Below are positions 2,960 to 30,115 of a stretch of 30,115 nucleotides of DNA, one piece after another; position 1 is the first letter of the stretch; each line of letters starts with the position of its first letter. Made by a program: the position numbers and the translations under genes. Source of the stretch: a virus; IMG/VR virus record IMGVR_UViG_3300033153_003684, positions 1-30,115 of that record; one strand, written 5' to 3'. Below the pieces are notes generated by a model. The model was not told where the DNA came from, ran no database searches, and was given only the letters and a program-made list of their open reading frames with translations.

Positions 2960-3205
2960 TTAGATGCTTCTAATTCTTCTATAAATGTACCTAATGATAT
3001 GGTCCAAGAAATGTATAGCAACTAATTTGTGTATTTGTAGTGTTGTTATTATATTATTATATGATAATCTTACGTGTAAATATCCACCCCTACCTACTGA
3101 ATTTTTCCTTATCATTTCCCTACCATATTTTAGTGATTTAACTCTACCTAACGAACTAATCTGATAATCACCTCCATAACCATTAATATCTTTCCATTCT
3201 TCCAT
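2960..3205 (-). pseudogene. NUMOD4/HNH homing endonuclease fragment
   Basis: The 81-residue frame begins EEWKDINGYGGDYQISSLGRVKSL, a clear NUMOD4 motif found at the N-terminus of phage HNH homing endonucleases. It continues with QIHKLVAIHFLDH, the point at which the HNH core (a DHIDGN-like segment) normally begins. Here the frame runs instead into IIRYIYRRIRSI and stops, so the catalytic HNH part is absent. A neighbouring frame shifted by one base continues open for about 33 codons (TISLGTFIEELEASNMYQLALMKFREF) and stops at 2902-2904. This could be a frameshifted tail or a deletion scar. The fragment sits alone and antisense between late genes, typical of a decayed homing insertion. Confidence 0.75.
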
Positions 3206-7311: not shown

Positions 7312-7482
7312 TTACATTTTTAATTTATTTAATCGATAATAATTAAATCCTATTTGATTATCTTTATTAATTATACTTTCTAGATATCTTATATACTCAA
7401 ATAGTGTTGTTAAATCCTGTACCACTTCACTAGGGAATTTATATCCAAATGGCGGATTATCCTCTGTTATTTGGTCTTTCAT
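7312..7482 (-). CDS. Small unknown protein (56 aa)
   Basis: A 56-residue frame starting MKDQITEDNPPFGYKFPSEVVQDLTTLFEYIRYLE. Its ATG overlaps the TGA stop of the upstream gene (ATGA), a strong sign of a real, coupled gene pair. Mostly helical after residue 18; no family recognised. Confidence 0.6.
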   Translation of the reverse strand: MKDQITEDNPPFGYKFPSEVVQDLTTLFEYIRYLESIINKDNQIGFNYYRLNKLKM

Positions 7483-8232: not shown

Positions 8233-8925
8233 TTACTTTGCTCCATTCGTGAGAAGCCATCCCAGACTATTTTCAAAATCTTTACCTTCTTTAGCATACT
8301 CTAAAATCTTTCCTTTTCTTTCAAATGAATTAATTTCATTTGGTAATTGATAATTATTAAAAGTATCAATTCTACCACCATATTTTTTAAATAAACTATT
8401 AAACTCTCTACGAGTTACTTTATACATCATAGTAGCACTTCCATAATCACCACCTTGGATTACACAATGTTGGAAATTCTCTTCTAATAATTTAATTAGA
8501 TTACTTGGTTTAATTACATATACATTATCCTTCAAATATAAAGGGAAGAAGTAAACGAATAAATCTGCTTTAGTAACAAACACACCTGATGTCTTTCCAC
8601 CACAACTAACTTCGAATACAAGATTATCTGTTTTGGTTTCATAAAAATCTGTTTTAATTTCAGCTAATATTTTCTTACCTGTTATTCCAGATATATCACC
8701 TTTATGATGAACTGCAAAACAGACGTCATAGTCTTTCCACTTTGATTTTTGTCCAGGGTATTTGCTATGAGAATGATGATTAAAGTGTAAATCATATTTT
8801 TGTGTTAATATATTATTTTCAATATAATTTATCATTATACGTTCACCAAACATTCCTTTTTGATTATCTTTTTGGAATTGTTGACTTCTATTCCATCCTA
8901 TTTTATTATTATTATTTTCTTTCAT
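8233..8925 (-). CDS. PD-(D/E)XK-type nuclease
   Basis: 230 residues. The arrangement KDYDVCF (Asp67), KKILAEIKTDF (Glu89-x-Lys91) and NLVFEVSCGGKTSGVFVTKADLFVYFFP fits a PD-(D/E)XK restriction-like fold: the active-site Asp, then E-x-K on the next strand, then a T-K-A-D helix seen in several phage nucleases. An N-terminal MFGERIMINYIE helix could supply another acidic residue (Glu28). It would act on phage or host DNA, for instance in recombination, host DNA breakdown or junction resolution; the substrate cannot be read from the sequence. First gene of the endolysin run, preceded by a TATATATTAAAT box (minus-strand ATTTAATATATA). Confidence 0.65.
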   Translation of the reverse strand: MKENNNNKIGWNRSQQFQKDNQKGMFGERIMINYIENNILTQKYDLHFNHHSHSKYPGQKSKWKDYDVCFAVHHKGDISGITGKKILAEIKTDFYETKTDNLVFEVSCGGKTSGVFVTKADLFVYFFPLYLKDNVYVIKPSNLIKLLEENFQHCVIQGGDYGSATMMYKVTRREFNSLFKKYGGRIDTFNNYQLPNEINSFERKGKILEYAKEGKDFENSLGWLLTNGAK

Positions 8926-8929
8926 AGTA

Positions 8930-8941
8930 TATATATTAAAT
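8930..8941 (-). promoter_or_regulatory. Early-type promoter-like box
   Basis: Minus-strand ATTTAATATATA four bases before the nuclease start codon, similar to boxes at 3211 and 7657. Confidence 0.35.
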
Positions 8942-9026
8942 AATAAAACCGTTTTTTGAAACTTTTCTATATAAATAGAATATAATACTTATTACCTACC
9001 AAATGTTTTTCATAGGTTTTTTTTGT

Positions 9027-9117: not shown

Positions 9118-9261
9118 ATGAAGAAAATAGAATTATTAAAAAGAATGTCAATTAAAGAATTGAATGAATCAAAAAAAGCAATATTAAAGATGTATGGGAG
9201 TAAAATAGAATTAAGATATAATTTAATTAAGAATATTGATGAAGAAATCTCACTTAGATAG
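9118..9261 (+). CDS. Small unknown protein (47 aa)
   Basis: A 47-residue plus-strand frame (MKKIELLKRMSIKELNESKKAILKMYGSKIELRYNLIK...) in a region of minus-strand genes. It is basic and helical and is followed within ten bases by a hairpin with a T-rich tail at 9271-9299, which supports a real monocistronic unit. No family recognised. Confidence 0.5.
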   Translation: MKKIELLKRMSIKELNESKKAILKMYGSKIELRYNLIKNIDEEISLR

Positions 9262-9359: not shown

Positions 9360-9402
9360 AGGGTATTTAGACCCCCTACAACTGCCCTTAAATAGCCTTT
9401 TT
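9360..9402 (+). terminator. Long-loop hairpin with T-run
   Basis: AGG-TATTTA (9360-9369) pairs with TAAATA-CCT (9389-9398) with one G-G mismatch and a C-rich 19-base loop, then TTTT. It lies between convergent units and may serve as a terminator or a structured RNA end. Confidence 0.4.
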
Positions 9403-11453: not shown

Positions 11454-11552
11454 ATTCTCTCGCTCTTTCGGGCATCTACGAGCCACACATTCGAGAATAG
11501 ATTCTTTGGTCGTTATTATATTGTCTGTCAGTCTGTTTCAAGTCTAAACCTA

Positions 11553-11579
11553 TAATAATAATAATAATAATAATAATAA
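11553..11579 (+). repeat. TAA trinucleotide microsatellite, nine units
   Basis: Nine tandem TAA units between the divergent transcription units, about 200 bases before the polymerase-like gene. Confidence 0.9.
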
Positions 11580-11669
11580 GAAGGACATATATAGTATTTA
11601 ATAGTAATAGTTTATAATACGCCCAAAAAGACACATTTTATAGAATATGACCTAATATCAGAAGATAAG

Positions 11670-11685
11670 CCGCTTTCATAAGCGG
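11670..11685. other. GC-rich perfect hairpin
   Basis: CCGCTT, loop TCAT, AAGCGG. No T-run follows, so it is not a terminator; it stands out in AT-rich DNA and may be part of an origin or an RNA leader structure. Confidence 0.6.
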
Positions 11686-11747
11686 TGGATGAGACAATAA
11701 TAAATAGAAATAAATTACAAAAAAGGTAAACAAAGGAGTAAAGTTTT

Positions 11748-11757
11748 TATATATAAG
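11748..11757 (+). promoter_or_regulatory. Early-type promoter-like box
   Basis: TATATATAAG 20 bases before the start of the polymerase-like gene. An AAACAA lies upstream at about 11728. It resembles the early-type boxes at 13163, 13620 and 11398. Confidence 0.45.
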
Positions 11758-11777
11758 ACAAAGAAAGAAACAAAGAA

Positions 11778-13034
11778 ATGATAGAAATTATACCAATGAA
11801 CAACACAGGATTATTTGAAAGAGAATTATCCAATAAAGAAATTAAAAGATTAACAGTTGAACATTATTGTTTCGCTGTTGATATGACACTAATAAGTAAA
11901 CTAATAACAATTGAAAATAGACCAATTAATAATCAAAAATTATTCATAAGAAATATACTTGAATTTTTATCTTGGTTAGATAGTAATGAAAAGATAATGG
12001 ATACTGGTGATGGACAAATACACACACAAATTTTCAGAAGATTTTTTGGTAATAATCACACTAAAGGATATAAGACAATATTATCTGAATTAGAAATTAT
12101 TACAGCTATCCCACACGAAGATGGAACTTGGTTTTCATATAATAAAAAGAACACACCAGAAAATATGAAAGTAGATGCTGTATGTTCTAGATATAAAGTA
12201 CATAATACTTATTATGCTATGGATGAAATATGCTTAGTTGTTATTCCAGAGGGAAGAAAGAAATACACAAGAGATACAATCACTATTCAAGATGGATTAG
12301 AATTAGACAATCGATATATAAATACAATTGATAAAATAGAAATTAATACCGTACCTGCAATTAAAGGTGAAATTGAACATTGCATTAAAAACAATCTATC
12401 TTTATCTATATTACAAAGAAGAATATCAAGAATCTTCAATACTAAAAGAAGTCGTTCAATTAAAAAAGGTGGTAATGTTAGTAGAATATACCACACATTT
12501 AGTACTATAAGTAGAATATCAAGAAAACATTTATCTGTTAATTTTACTTCAATAGATATTAAAAATTGCCAACCACTTATATTAGTAGGATATCTAATGT
12601 CTAATGAATTGGGATATGATATCGATTATAAAAATGATTGTGAAGATGCTATATTCTATGAAAAGTTTTATGATTTATATTCACATATACAAGATGAAGA
12701 AGAAAGAAGATTAAAAGTTAAACAACATATTTATAAATTTTTATTTTTCGGATTCACTGAAAGAAGTAGAGTTAATAAAAGATTCAAAGAATTATATCCA
12801 ATTACTTGGCAAACTTTAAGTGAAATTAAAAAAACTGATATAAGTCTAGCTAATAGATTGCAAAATTTAGAAGGTGATTTATTCAATAAGCTAATTCCAG
12901 ATTTTAGTAAACATTACTTCACATTATTTGATGCGGTTTATTTTTCTGATTCAAGTGAGATAGGAACATTAACCAAAAGATTAGGTGAGTTATTCGCTGG
13001 ATTAGGATTGAAGGTTAGAGTAGAAATAAATTAA
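11778..13034 (+). CDS. Divergent polymerase-like replication protein
   Basis: 418 residues, not in a family that I can name with certainty. The C-terminal half carries an ordered set that resembles the palm of family A-type polymerases. GGNVSRIYHTFSTISRISRKHL lies at about 231-251. It is followed by SIDIKNCQPLIL (Asp260, a motif A-like D-x-K-x-x-Q-P), then KQHIYKFLFFGFTERSRVNKRFKELYP (315-341, like the motif B K...FG helix) and FTLFDAVYFS (Asp385, motif C-like). Residues 1-200 could be an accessory or DNA-binding domain. Proteins with D-I-K-N-x-Q-P are scattered in phages and plasmids, mostly annotated hypothetical. The gene is flanked on both sides by structured noncoding DNA, which fits a replication role. 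Start chosen at the ATG after an A-rich leader. Confidence 0.6.
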   Translation: MIEIIPMNNTGLFERELSNKEIKRLTVEHYCFAVDMTLISKLITIENRPINNQKLFIRNILEFLSWLDSNEKIMDTGDGQIHTQIFRRFFGNNHTKGYKTILSELEIITAIPHEDGTWFSYNKKNTPENMKVDAVCSRYKVHNTYYAMDEICLVVIPEGRKKYTRDTITIQDGLELDNRYINTIDKIEINTVPAIKGEIEHCIKNNLSLSILQRRISRIFNTKRSRSIKKGGNVSRIYHTFSTISRISRKHLSVNFTSIDIKNCQPLILVGYLMSNELGYDIDYKNDCEDAIFYEKFYDLYSHIQDEEERRLKVKQHIYKFLFFGFTERSRVNKRFKELYPITWQTLSEIKKTDISLANRLQNLEGDLFNKLIPDFSKHYFTLFDAVYFSDSSEIGTLTKRLGELFAGLGLKVRVEIN

Positions 13035-13210: not shown

Positions 13211-13465
13211 ATGAAATGTAAAAACACAAAATGTAACAAAGAATTTACTGGTAGAATAACAAAACAATATTGTTCAACTAAATGTAAAGATTTATCAAAA
13301 TCGATTAGGAATCATAGAAAAAACTATCAAGCTATACCACCAGCAGAATACAAAACAATTGATGAAATAACAGAACAAGAATGTATTGAATTAAATAAAC
13401 TAAGAGAAGAAGTAATGGGTTATTTATTTTCAAACGAAGAGAATACAATAATAGTAAAAAAATAA
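13211..13465 (+). CDS. Small zinc-ribbon protein
   Basis: 84 residues with an N-terminal treble-cleft or zinc-ribbon pattern: Cys3, Cys8, Cys21 and Cys25 (MKCKNTKCNKEF...QYCSTKCKDLSKSIRNHRKNY), typical of small nucleic-acid-binding or ribosome-linked zinc proteins. The rest is a charged helix. It follows the polymerase-like gene and its structured downstream region, preceded by an early-type box and a long A-rich leader. Possibly a transcription or replication accessory factor. Confidence 0.7.
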   Translation: MKCKNTKCNKEFTGRITKQYCSTKCKDLSKSIRNHRKNYQAIPPAEYKTIDEITEQECIELNKLREEVMGYLFSNEENTIIVKK

Positions 13466-13631: not shown

Positions 13632-14018
13632 ATGAGACAGACATTAACACTAAGAGAAGTATTAAGATTATTATTCATCCCATTACAATCAAAAGAAGAT
13701 ACAGTATTCTTATATGAAATACTAGCAGACGATATAGATAATATAGATAGATTAATCGTAGAAGAATCAGGATTTGTTATATTGGATTTATATGGTATGG
13801 AAAAATATGTAAGTTATTTAGATTTAGAATATTTCATTATACCACAAGCATTATTTGATAGACAAACAGTTATAGAAGAAGTAAGAAGAATAGAAATTGA
13901 ATTACTTGAATCAGAACTATCACAATTAGAAAAGAAGATAGCTACATTAGATAGTAATTTAGATTACTGGTTAGACTCATACAACCTTATCCTGAAAGAA
14001 ATAGACTTACTTGTATAG
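13632..14018 (+). CDS. Unknown protein with C-terminal coiled coil
   Basis: 128 residues. Residues 1-80 look like a small folded domain (TLREVLRLLFIPLQSKEDTVFLYEIL...VSYLDLEYFIIPQALFDRQTV); residues 80-125 form a heptad-rich helix (EIELLESELSQLEKKIATLDSNLDYWLDSYNLILKEIDLL). It begins just after a strong terminator and is followed by the sigma-like gene, so the two could be co-regulated; a partner or antagonist of the sigma-like protein is possible but speculative. Confidence 0.65.
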   Translation: MRQTLTLREVLRLLFIPLQSKEDTVFLYEILADDIDNIDRLIVEESGFVILDLYGMEKYVSYLDLEYFIIPQALFDRQTVIEEVRRIEIELLESELSQLEKKIATLDSNLDYWLDSYNLILKEIDLLV

Positions 14019-14085
14019 TCTTATATCAAATAATATTTTAAAGCCCTTAGAAGAGACGAGAGGAGGTATTTTTGATATATATATT

Positions 14086-14760
14086 ATGGAAACAAAAATA
14101 CTATCAAACTCAGAAATATTAGAAATAACATTAAAAGAAACAGATTACATTCAGATATGTGATAATATATCTAAGGGGGATAATTTAAAAATGGAATTAT
14201 TCCAAGAAGTAATGTTATCTATTATGAAGAAGAAGAATAAATTCCTAAATGATTTACATCAAAAGAAACAATTAAAATATTATATTATATTTATTCTCAA
14301 ACAAGAATGGTCAGGTAGTAATTCAAGTTTTAATAGAAATTTCAGACAGAAGAGAAACCAAGTTAAGATAGATATAAATGTTGATTTATCTACAATAGAT
14401 ATTTTCACAGAGAATTATAATGGAAAACTATTCAAGAAGTTAATTGAACTATCTGATGATGAATATAGTAATAAGATTAAATATTATTTATCTAATATAG
14501 ATAGAATATTATCAGAAGAAAAGTATTGGAATAATGGAATACAAGATTGGTATGGTAAAGAATTATTTGAAATGTATTTTAAATTGAATGATTATAATAT
14601 GATAGATGGTTATAAAAGAGATTTAGAATGTACATCACAAACAAGCAGTATGAGAAAGATAGAAAGAAGAACTGGTATAGACCACGTAAGCGTTTCCTTT
14701 TCTATTAGAGATACAAAGAAATATATTCAAGATATATTAAAAGAAGAAAAGATAATGTGA
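14086..14760 (+). CDS. Phage RNA polymerase sigma-factor-like protein
   Basis: 224 residues from the ATG at 14086. Residues about 34-90 (LKMELFQEVMLSIMKK...KQLKYYIIFILKQEWSGSNSSFNRNFRQKR) match the region 2-like part of small sigma-like proteins common in Bacteroidota phages (LFQEV, K-Y-I-I-Q, S-F-R-YR). Residues about 187-215 (SSMRKIERRTGIDHVSVSFSIRDTKKYI) form a region 4-like helix-turn-helix. It would redirect host RNA polymerase to phage promoters. A late promoter-like motif copy lies 17 bases after its stop, and the terminase and tail genes follow. The frame is open upstream to a TTG at 14011, overlapping the previous gene; the ATG is preferred. An AGGAGG at 14061-14066 lies 19 bases before the ATG, too far for normal use, and TATTTTTG at 14067-14074 matches the Bacteroidota -7 pattern TAnnTTTG. 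Confidence 0.7.
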   Translation: METKILSNSEILEITLKETDYIQICDNISKGDNLKMELFQEVMLSIMKKKNKFLNDLHQKKQLKYYIIFILKQEWSGSNSSFNRNFRQKRNQVKIDINVDLSTIDIFTENYNGKLFKKLIELSDDEYSNKIKYYLSNIDRILSEEKYWNNGIQDWYGKELFEMYFKLNDYNMIDGYKRDLECTSQTSSMRKIERRTGIDHVSVSFSIRDTKKYIQDILKEEKIM

Positions 14761-28113: not shown

Positions 28114-30075
28114 ATGGCAAAGACAATAGCATTTAAGACCACATTAGATAATACTAATACTATTCAATCATTGGAGAGTATGGAAACTAATCTAGAGTCT
28201 TTAAAAGAACAGATAAGAAATACAACTGACCCAGCTGAATTCAAACGATTAGGTTCGGAAATTAAAGCATCTGAATCAGAAGTAAAGAATTTAAATAAAT
28301 CATTTGAAGGACTAGATTCAGAAGCACAAGCTGGTAAGATAGGACAACTAGCAGGTGGTATTGGTGCTATGGCTACAGCAGCTGCATTGGTTGTAGGTGA
28401 GAATGAAAACTTTGAAGCATTCTTTCAAACATTTGCAACTGGTATGGCGATAACACAAGCAGTTAAAGGAGCTATTGAAGCTTGGACTGCTGCACAAGAA
28501 GTATTAAATATAGTAATGACAGCCAATCCAATTGGACTTATTATAGTAGGTGTTGCTGCATTGATTGCAGGTATTGTTTTATTAGTAGTATATTTTGACC
28601 AGATAATAGATTATATGACAAACTTAAATGATGTTATCTTGATTTTATTAGGTCCAATAGGCTTATTAATCCTTGCTTATAAATTAATATACGCAGAAGA
28701 ATTAGAAGCAGAATCACAGAAGGAAGCTAATATCAAAAAAGAGAAAGCTAGGTCAGAACAAAGAATTAGAGATATAAAAAGAGAACGAAAAGAAAATGCT
28801 AAAGCTCATAAAGAAAGACAAAGTGCATTTGATTTACAGATAGAAACATTAGAAGCAGAAGGTAAAGCTTCATTTGCTGTTACTATGGCTAAGTTACAAG
28901 ATATATTAGATGAAAAGACTGCTATTTTAGAAGCATCACAAGCAATGTTCCAAGAGAAGTTAACTTATTACCAAAATATAGCTAAGTTACAAGGTCAGAG
29001 TGATGAAGAATTTAAAAAATCTATGTTAGCACAAGGAGTAGATTTCGATGCTTTAACAGAACAATTTAATAAAGGATTACAAAACCAAAAAGATGCAGCA
29101 CAGAGAGCTCAAAATGCTATTACCAAAGCTAATAGAGAACACAATGAAGAGAGAAGAGCTGAGAATAAGAAGACTTCTGATGATAAAATAGCACAAGAAG
29201 AAAAAGATTTAGCTCATATAATAGCAATTCAAGAAAAGATTGATGCTTTATCTATTGAACAAATAGAAAACGAACAAGAAAGAAATGATGCTAAAGCTCA
29301 AGCTAAGTTTGAAAAGATGGTTAAGAATTTAGATGATAGTAATGCTAAAGAATTAGAGTTAATCAAATTATATGAACAACAATTATTTGATACATTAGAT
29401 GCTAATCAACTTAAAGTAGATGAGGCTAATGAAGCTAAGAAATTAAAAGAACAAGCTGATAGGGATGCTGAGATTGAAGCAGAGAAAGAAAAGAATGAAG
29501 CTATATTCCAAAGTAAAATAGATGGTTATAATAAGAGTATAGACTTAGGAAAACAAGGATTGTCATCAGCAACTAATTTAGCTAATTCTATTTTCACTAT
29601 GACTGATAATATGGGTAAACAAGATGATGCTTCTAAATTAAAACGGGCTAAACGTCAATTCGAAATACAAAAGGGATTCTCAATTGCTGAGGCTGGTTTA
29701 AATACTGCAACTGCAATTGTTAAGGCTATTGCTCAATTTGGACCACCACCTTCACCATTAGGTATAGCAGGGATTGCTACTGCTGGTATAATAGGTGCTG
29801 CACAAATCGGTGCTATTGCTAGTGCTAAATTCTCAGGTGGTTCGGTAGGTTCTGTATCTGCTCCTAGTTCTTCTGTACCTAGTGCTAATACAGGTAGTGC
29901 TCCTGTACCATCTACTAATACTTTATTTAGTGTACCTGGTGCTGGAACAGAACAATTAGGTGAGGGTGCTGGTAGTACTCAATCAGCTCCTATACAAGCT
30001 TTCGTTGTTGAAAGTGATATAACAAACACACAGAATGAACTATCTAACTTACAACAGATGAGTGAAATAGGATAA
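28114..30075 (+). CDS. Tail tape measure-like protein
   Basis: 653 residues. N-terminal helical segment with coiled-coil character (about 15-65), a Gly/Ala hydrophobic stretch (about 75-165 and 170-200: TANPIGLIIVGVAALIAGIVLLVVYF, VILILLGPIGLLILAYKLIY), a long charged Lys/Glu/Ala-rich coiled-coil region (about 205-480), a second Gly/Ala hydrophobic part (about 515-570) and a low-complexity Ser/Pro/Thr tail. This layout is typical of tape measure proteins. By the usual relation of about 0.15 nm per residue it would predict a tail of roughly 100 nm. It lies about 10 kb after the tail assembly chaperone, an unusual distance. Confidence 0.75.
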   Translation: MAKTIAFKTTLDNTNTIQSLESMETNLESLKEQIRNTTDPAEFKRLGSEIKASESEVKNLNKSFEGLDSEAQAGKIGQLAGGIGAMATAAALVVGENENFEAFFQTFATGMAITQAVKGAIEAWTAAQEVLNIVMTANPIGLIIVGVAALIAGIVLLVVYFDQIIDYMTNLNDVILILLGPIGLLILAYKLIYAEELEAESQKEANIKKEKARSEQRIRDIKRERKENAKAHKERQSAFDLQIETLEAEGKASFAVTMAKLQDILDEKTAILEASQAMFQEKLTYYQNIAKLQGQSDEEFKKSMLAQGVDFDALTEQFNKGLQNQKDAAQRAQNAITKANREHNEERRAENKKTSDDKIAQEEKDLAHIIAIQEKIDALSIEQIENEQERNDAKAQAKFEKMVKNLDDSNAKELELIKLYEQQLFDTLDANQLKVDEANEAKKLKEQADRDAEIEAEKEKNEAIFQSKIDGYNKSIDLGKQGLSSATNLANSIFTMTDNMGKQDDASKLKRAKRQFEIQKGFSIAEAGLNTATAIVKAIAQFGPPPSPLGIAGIATAGIIGAAQIGAIASAKFSGGSVGSVSAPSSSVPSANTGSAPVPSTNTLFSVPGAGTEQLGEGAGSTQSAPIQAFVVESDITNTQNELSNLQQMSEIG

Positions 30076-30093
30076 AAAATAATAATAATTAAA

Positions 30094-30115
30094 ATGGAAA
30101 ATAAAGAAGAATTAA
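30094..30115 (+). CDS. Start of a further gene, cut by window edge
   Basis: ATG at 30094 then GAA AAT AAA GAA GAA TTA, after an A-rich leader, 18 bases after the tape-measure-like gene. Seven residues visible (MENKEEL); nothing can be said about function. Confidence 0.5.

Follow-up and report, generated by a model that had tools for sequence, protein, structure and literature searches.

The protein encoded at positions 11778 to 13034 of the window, by which we mean the whole 30,115-base virus record analyzed here, is almost certainly a family-A palm polymerase, as judged from its predicted fold and its active site, and its sequence indicates that the catalytic residues are intact. It belongs to a large, unannotated clade, recognizable by a D-x-x-N-[CS]-Q-P motif A, that is sister to divPolA2 and related to TV-Pol (2008). 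By family models, it is the only recognizable replication gene of the phage. We consider it quite probable that the enzyme makes DNA rather than RNA and somewhat likely that the phage uses it as a DNA polymerase to start or prime its own replication, with the host completing the rest.

The phage genome and the polymerase gene

The window is from a small phage of Bacteroidota and looks like a near-complete genome that was opened inside a protease-like gene. A tape-measure-like gene ends at position 30075, base 1 lies within an open protease-like frame, and the last bases (30076 to 30115) contain an ATG with a plausible N terminus that is slightly out of frame. The two ends almost join, but in different frames, and in the related phage L001 the tape-measure-like and protease-like genes are adjacent.

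The features on which the analysis depends are as follows.

11487 to 11777, no strand assigned: noncoding gap between a leftward gene block and the polymerase gene (gene orientation, GC-skew change)
11670 to 11685, no strand assigned: hairpin CCGCTT-TCAT-AAGCGG (stem search; fold z of -3.8 in a 120-nt span)
11778 to 13034, plus strand: family-A-like polymerase gene, 418 amino acids (open reading frame, homologues, AlphaFold2 model, PDB matches)
11934 to 12200, plus strand: N-terminal domain, residues 53 to 141, weakly winged-helix-like (separate AlphaFold2 model, pLDDT 83)
12483 to 12485, plus strand: Arg236, presumed counterpart of the TGR arginine (Pol I R668), located in the beta-hairpin that precedes the palm (invariant in 41 homologues)
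12555 to 12575, plus strand: motif A, DIKNCQP, residues 260 to 266, with D260 as predicted metal ligand (D260, N263, Q265, and P266 invariant)
12708 to 12752, plus strand: motif B/O-helix, R311xxxK315xxxY319xxxF323-F-G325 (conservation; helix 307 to 324 in the model)
12861 to 12872, plus strand: L-Q-N-L-E signature, Q362 to E365 (invariant in 33 homologues, partly ascertained because the signature formed part of a search pattern)
12927 to 12935, plus strand: motif C, F384-D385-A386 (D385 invariant)
13211 to 13465, plus strand: 84-amino-acid, four-cysteine zinc-finger-like protein directly downstream of the polymerase gene (sequence)

An earlier note, made from the letters of this DNA alone, had reported the open reading frame and its length together with D260, K315...F323-F324-G325 (12720 to 12752), and D385, and all of these are where it placed them. 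Searches of Pfam, PHROGs, and NCBIfam with the 418-residue protein returned nothing above chance, including no match to PF00476 or to PHROG 4756, and a PDB sequence-profile search with six sequences in the query also gave no match. The miss by PF00476 is a shortcoming of the Pfam model and not of the fold. Phage polymerases without the usual sequence signatures escape annotation, and the window protein is an example: its clade ranges from 30-kb to ~735-kb phages despite the absence of any significant Pfam, PHROG, or NCBIfam match. A PADLOC RT_III-A match (E = 4e-4, residues 240 to 345) was set aside because the fold is that of family A; it may come from the palm that is common to both.

Conservation of the active site

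Statements on residue conservation are based on 33 to 41 fetched homologues, which came from viral contigs, bacterial genomes, and jumbo-phage records. R236, D260, N263, Q265, P266, K315, Q362, E365, and D385 are unvarying in 34 aligned proteins, one row of which ends before residue 362. All of these except Q362 and E365 are also without exception in 16 close-clade and more than 25 distant proteins. In a set of 47 proteins (an enlarged set plus six divPolA2 proteins), D260, K315, and D385 are invariant, and the sole change at R236 is to Lys, in the divPolA2 protein of ICP1. The (R/K)xxxK pattern has one exception among the homologues (L016, with N), position 319 is Y or F in 40 of 41 homologues and W in the other, and motif C reads H-D-S/C/Q in the distant clade. 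DIKN[CS]QP was one of the search patterns, so the conservation of motif A is partly ascertained for some distant homologues. Six close members without DIKN, which were found by a second pattern, still keep N, Q, and P; the variants among such close homologues are DITN, DIIN, DIVN, and DVTN. D385 is absent from every search pattern used. Conservation of Asp260 and Asp385 among homologues was a check set beforehand, and both residues are invariant. With the motifs kept across both clades and the predicted fold that of family A, the order and spacing to which the earlier note drew attention go beyond chance.

By motif spacing rather than by coordinates, we take R236 to be equivalent to Pol I R668, D260 to D705, Q265 to E710, R311 to R754, K315 to K758, Y319 to F762, F323 to Y766, and D385 to D882. 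The Gln at the E710 steric-gate position, which normally contributes to keeping out RNA building blocks, is invariant in clade members and is the most unusual feature of the protein; it bears on the choice between DNA and RNA building blocks and on the origin of family-A primases.

Predicted structure

An AlphaFold2 model of the 418-residue protein, made from 34 sequences, has a pLDDT of 90.6 and a pTM of 0.85, and the predicted fold comprises a family-A palm, fingers, and probably a thumb. The best PDB structural matches are T7 DNA polymerase, Taq, Bst, Pol theta, and apPol, with Z of 12 to 15 over residues 163 to 418. Pol theta (Foldseek, VIA-align) reaches Z 15.0 over 235 residues at 3.4 Å, and Taq and T7 DNA polymerase each reach Z 13.2, with a matched span of ~163 to 418. 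The best 42 PDB matches are DNA polymerases without exception, and neither RNA polymerases nor archaeo-eukaryotic primases are among the PDB structural matches listed. The nearest viral models are uncultured phage proteins, followed by divPolA2-type proteins (e.g., Barba31A) and then by the replication protein of the Zamilon virophage (E = 3.8e-4). The family A-like palm that the earlier note proposed, and for which it named structure prediction and comparison with Pol I, T7 RNA polymerase, and primase-polymerases as a check, is present in the model along with the fingers. The palm, fingers, and thumb core is shared with bacterial Pol I and T7 DNA polymerase; unlike these enzymes, the window protein has only 418 residues, has no exonuclease domain, and is missed by PF00476.

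The N-terminal ~160 residues have a confident predicted fold. The order of elements in residues 53 to 141 is helix-strand-helix-helix-strand-strand, and many winged-helix DNA-binding proteins are among the best PDB matches to this domain, yet with Z ≤5.0. An assignment of the N terminus as a winged helix was not adopted, as the Foldseek E value of 0.6 is not significant.

Relationship to divPolA2 and TV-Pol

In profile-profile comparisons, the close and distant clades match each other with an E value of 1e-30, and the distant clade matches divPolA2 with an E value of 3e-15 over 346 columns with the motifs in register. The close clade alone matches divPolA2 weakly (probability 5%, E = 0.007). 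The earlier note missed divPolA2 and TV-Pol as sister groups; its description of the sequence as unlike known phage polymerases is correct as far as Pfam, PHROGs, and NCBIfam are concerned, but the profile comparison links the clade to divPolA2.

divPolA2 was described from phages of Vibrio, Rheinheimera, Aeromonas, and others (Virol J 2024; PMC11348598), and its representative AUR84708, with gate residue E, is PHROG 4756. Both groups have ~400 to 440 residues, an N-terminal globular domain, a family-A palm, and no exonuclease, and both have the hairpin Arg (Lys in ICP1), the motif A and motif C Asp residues, and RxxxK in register. They differ at the gate, which is E, H, or W in divPolA2 and always Q in the window clade, and at O-helix position +4, which is T, L, or M in divPolA2 and Y or F (W in one protein) in the window clade. 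They also differ in that a second, regular DNA polymerase is expected alongside divPolA2, whereas none is found in the window or in the other close-clade phage records; large-phage relatives often do encode one.

TV-Pol was described from virophages, mobile elements, and Microcystis phage Ma-LMM01 (Iyer et al. 2008; PMC2579912). The window clade has its Arg hairpin, two Asp residues, RxxxK, and minimal family-A core, and both groups are spread over mobile elements and phages. Fusion or linkage to a D5 helicase, which is common but not universal in TV-Pol, is missing in the window clade, with PF08706 absent from all 25 records searched. A 506-residue Ma-LMM01 protein beside a transposase, which we take to be a probable TV-Pol, was the top profile match, yet with an E value of only 0.01. 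Our search of the open-licence literature found no paper that describes the N-x-Q-P clade, and the database entry for one relative from an uncultured marine phage reads "Putative DNA polymerase I." We regard the window protein as a distinct variant within the poorly characterized divPolA2/TV-Pol-like mini-PolA group.

For divPolA2, repair or transcription was considered by the authors, who raised the possibility of an RNA polymerase on structural grounds (PMC11348598). A role as a single-subunit RNA polymerase, either for transcription of phage genes or for synthesis of an RNA primer or a transcript at the origin, would be consistent with the change from Glu to Gln at the steric gate in all members and with two weak matches of the distant member L047, one to RNA_pol PF00940 (E = 0.059) and one to a phage RNA polymerase PHROG (0.019). 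We nevertheless consider such an enzyme unlikely. T7-type RNA polymerases have Met at the F762/M635 position, where the window protein has Y319 and other members have Y, F, or W; the structural ranking contains DNA polymerases in all 42 top places; 418 residues leave little space for promoter-recognition and RNA-exit domains; and the relatives in L005 and L047 adjoin DNA replication genes. Profiles made from the single sequences of T7 RNA polymerase and T7 DNA polymerase were of no use for discrimination. DNA synthesis is favored because of the aromatic residue at the F762 position, the DNA-polymerase-first structural ranking, and the replication neighbors. Of the roles that the earlier note had offered (replicative, priming, or transcription polymerase), the analysis favors the initiation or priming of replication by DNA synthesis, and transcription is disfavored.

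Replication genes and gene neighborhood

The window has no match to PF00476, PF03796, PF01807, PF13155, PF08275, PF07733, PF00136, or PF08706, and for these eight Pfam families our search confirms the earlier note, which had seen no other replication gene. Models of PolA, PolB, PolC, DnaB, DnaG, and D5 likewise have no match in the window or in the close-clade phage records tested. Among large relatives, DnaB is found in 11 records and PolB in 11 records, and the only DnaG-type domains are those of one 511-kb phage. In L005 and L047 the gene is directly upstream of a PF00476 polymerase, with DnaB a few kilobases beyond. The mini and PF00476 polymerases are back to back at 9374 to 11815 in L005 and at 7476 to 10163 in L047, and this arrangement in two very different phages suggests a working pair.

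Directly downstream of the gene in L004 are an ExoX-C-like protein and then a DnaQ-type exonuclease. The ExoX-C-like neighbor recurs in L017, and DnaQ is encoded nearby in L001; DnaQ neighbors occur in two phages only (L001 and L004). A small cysteine-rich protein is encoded downstream of the gene in the window, L001, and L002, and in the window this 84-residue zinc-finger-like protein is a possible accessory protein. The window also encodes a 230-residue protein (8233 to 8925, minus strand) that has no Pfam match, has relatives in L002, L015, and L016, and reads like a PD-(D/E)XK-like nuclease.

Small phages can depend on host replication, and the lack of a helicase or primase in the window would be consistent with a polymerase for DNA repair, gap filling, or end processing in a phage that the host replicates. 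The PD-(D/E)XK-like protein would also fit, and repair is among the options of the divPolA2 authors (PMC11348598). We think that this is improbable, since the protein has no exonuclease domain and none was recognized elsewhere in the window, a sole polymerase in 30 kb that is dedicated to repair would be unusual, and replication accounts equally well for the DnaQ partners in L001 and L004. A role in replication is supported by the fact that in this near-whole genome no other polymerase, replicative helicase, or primase was found.

Two further proteins of the window were noted. Homologues of a 249-residue protein (14011 to 14760) are present in L001 and L004, and the one in L001 also has a relative in L017. 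A Sigma70_r2 match of the L001 homologue, although below threshold (E = 0.036), makes the protein a possible phage sigma-like factor. An 81-residue protein between structural genes (2960 to 3205, minus strand) resembles, by reading, a truncated NUMOD4/HNH homing endonuclease.

Distribution of the clade

Close-clade proteins are 31 to 45% identical to the window protein over the full length. They come from phage records of ~20 to 37 kb (L001, L002, L004, L011, and L020), short contigs (L015 to L017 and L019), and bacterial loci (L051 to L054, L056, and L058). Distant-clade proteins (L005, L008, L021 to L050, L059, and L060) are ~26 to 35% identical in the C-terminal half and reach phage records of up to 735 kb. 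The close relatives are found in ~30- to 32-kb Bacteroidota phages and in chromosomal loci linked to an integrase (L053 and L056) or a resolvase (L054); TV-Pol elements have a similar integrase or mobile-element setting (PMC2579912). The close clade forms a monophyletic group in the tree (local support of 0.84), with phage and chromosomal members intermixed, which suggests repeated movement. No homologue was found in the plasmid collection searched, and chromosomal copies are rare, being present in 2 of the 397 genomes sampled in the family of G031.

Three Flavobacterium copies are near defense genes (L051, 14479 to 20879; L052, 5897 to 9076; L058, 1663 to 4500). Gabija GajA/GajB (E values of ~1e-280 and 1e-250) and PDC-S73 are a few kilobases away in L051, the L052 copy adjoins a type III restriction gene, and the L058 copy adjoins HsdR (type I restriction). 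These neighbors would fit a host-interaction or defense-related polymerase whose phage copies are counterdefense or domesticated forms, but mobile elements also concentrate in defense islands, copies in L053, L054, and L056 are near an integrase or resolvase, chromosomal copies are rare, and no conserved defense partner was seen, and we therefore regard this as very improbable. In the L001 homologue, codon 20 is an in-frame stop, after which there is an ATG (9130 to 9190); the protein may lack its first 20 residues or may start elsewhere.

Proposed function in replication

We propose that the window protein, a compact family-A polymerase without an exonuclease that is found in ~30-kb Bacteroidota phages, starts or primes replication. 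Its predicted layout is an N-terminal domain of ~160 residues, a thumb-like helical segment, a hairpin with the template arginine, a palm with two metal-binding Asp residues, and fingers whose O-helix has (R/K)xxxK. The N-terminal domain would bind phage DNA, perhaps immediately upstream of the polymerase gene, and the polymerase would open phage replication by making primers or a first strand, either DNA or mixed; the product would be DNA and not long transcripts. The host helicase and polymerase III would then take over. Proteins of this kind also occur in large phages that have DnaB and a regular polymerase, and there they would have an auxiliary or priming role.

We infer a primase activity, and the priming role with it, from gene context and from analogy with CcPol. 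In Pol I, the residues at the E710 and Y766 positions make a Glu-Tyr contact. Gln at the gate and Phe at the Y766 position eliminate this contact, and sugar selection may therefore be relaxed, which would be useful in priming. The CcPol primase instead retains E and F at the positions equivalent to E710 and F762 (E174 and F225; PMC7581432), whereas the gate of the window protein is Gln. CcPol-MP is a family-A polymerase for which action as a DNA primase was shown in vitro (PMC7581432), and together with the PolA-SSB primases (PMC10061031) it represents family-A priming in mobile elements; for the window protein, priming is a proposal. CcPol also requires the OB-fold partner MP, whereas we identified no such partner for the window protein, and the 84-residue protein downstream is cysteine-rich and not obviously an OB-fold. 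The host could, moreover, supply DnaG, helicase, and all of the missing factors. More tentatively, the protein could be a replication starter in one piece, in which a winged-helix-like DNA-binding domain joined to a minimal Gln-gate polymerase would recognize the origin and prime without a primase; its users would be phages, small and jumbo alike, and integrative elements of Bacteroidota. A 30-kb phage with a sole detectable replication gene would make divPolA2-type function directly testable.

Upstream noncoding region

The gap at 11487 to 11777 is a candidate control region or origin. Of all perfect stems in the 30-kb record, that of the hairpin within this gap is the only one with ≥6 bp and ≥4 G/C. 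A retron-like upstream noncoding RNA was considered and rejected: several members have hairpins, but these differ in sequence and position, some look like terminators, and we claim no conserved RNA. Paired GC-rich hairpins are present upstream of the gene in L057 (9612 and 9852), L054 (5619 and 5856), L053 (9600 and 9810), and L019 (599 and 1460), and those of L057 and L019 are exact reverse complements within each pair, with complementary loops. Such pairs could be an origin, an element end, or a REP-like repeat. L001 has an inverted repeat of ~29 bp at ~8850 to 8970, ~250 bases upstream of the gene, with a fold z of -11.4.
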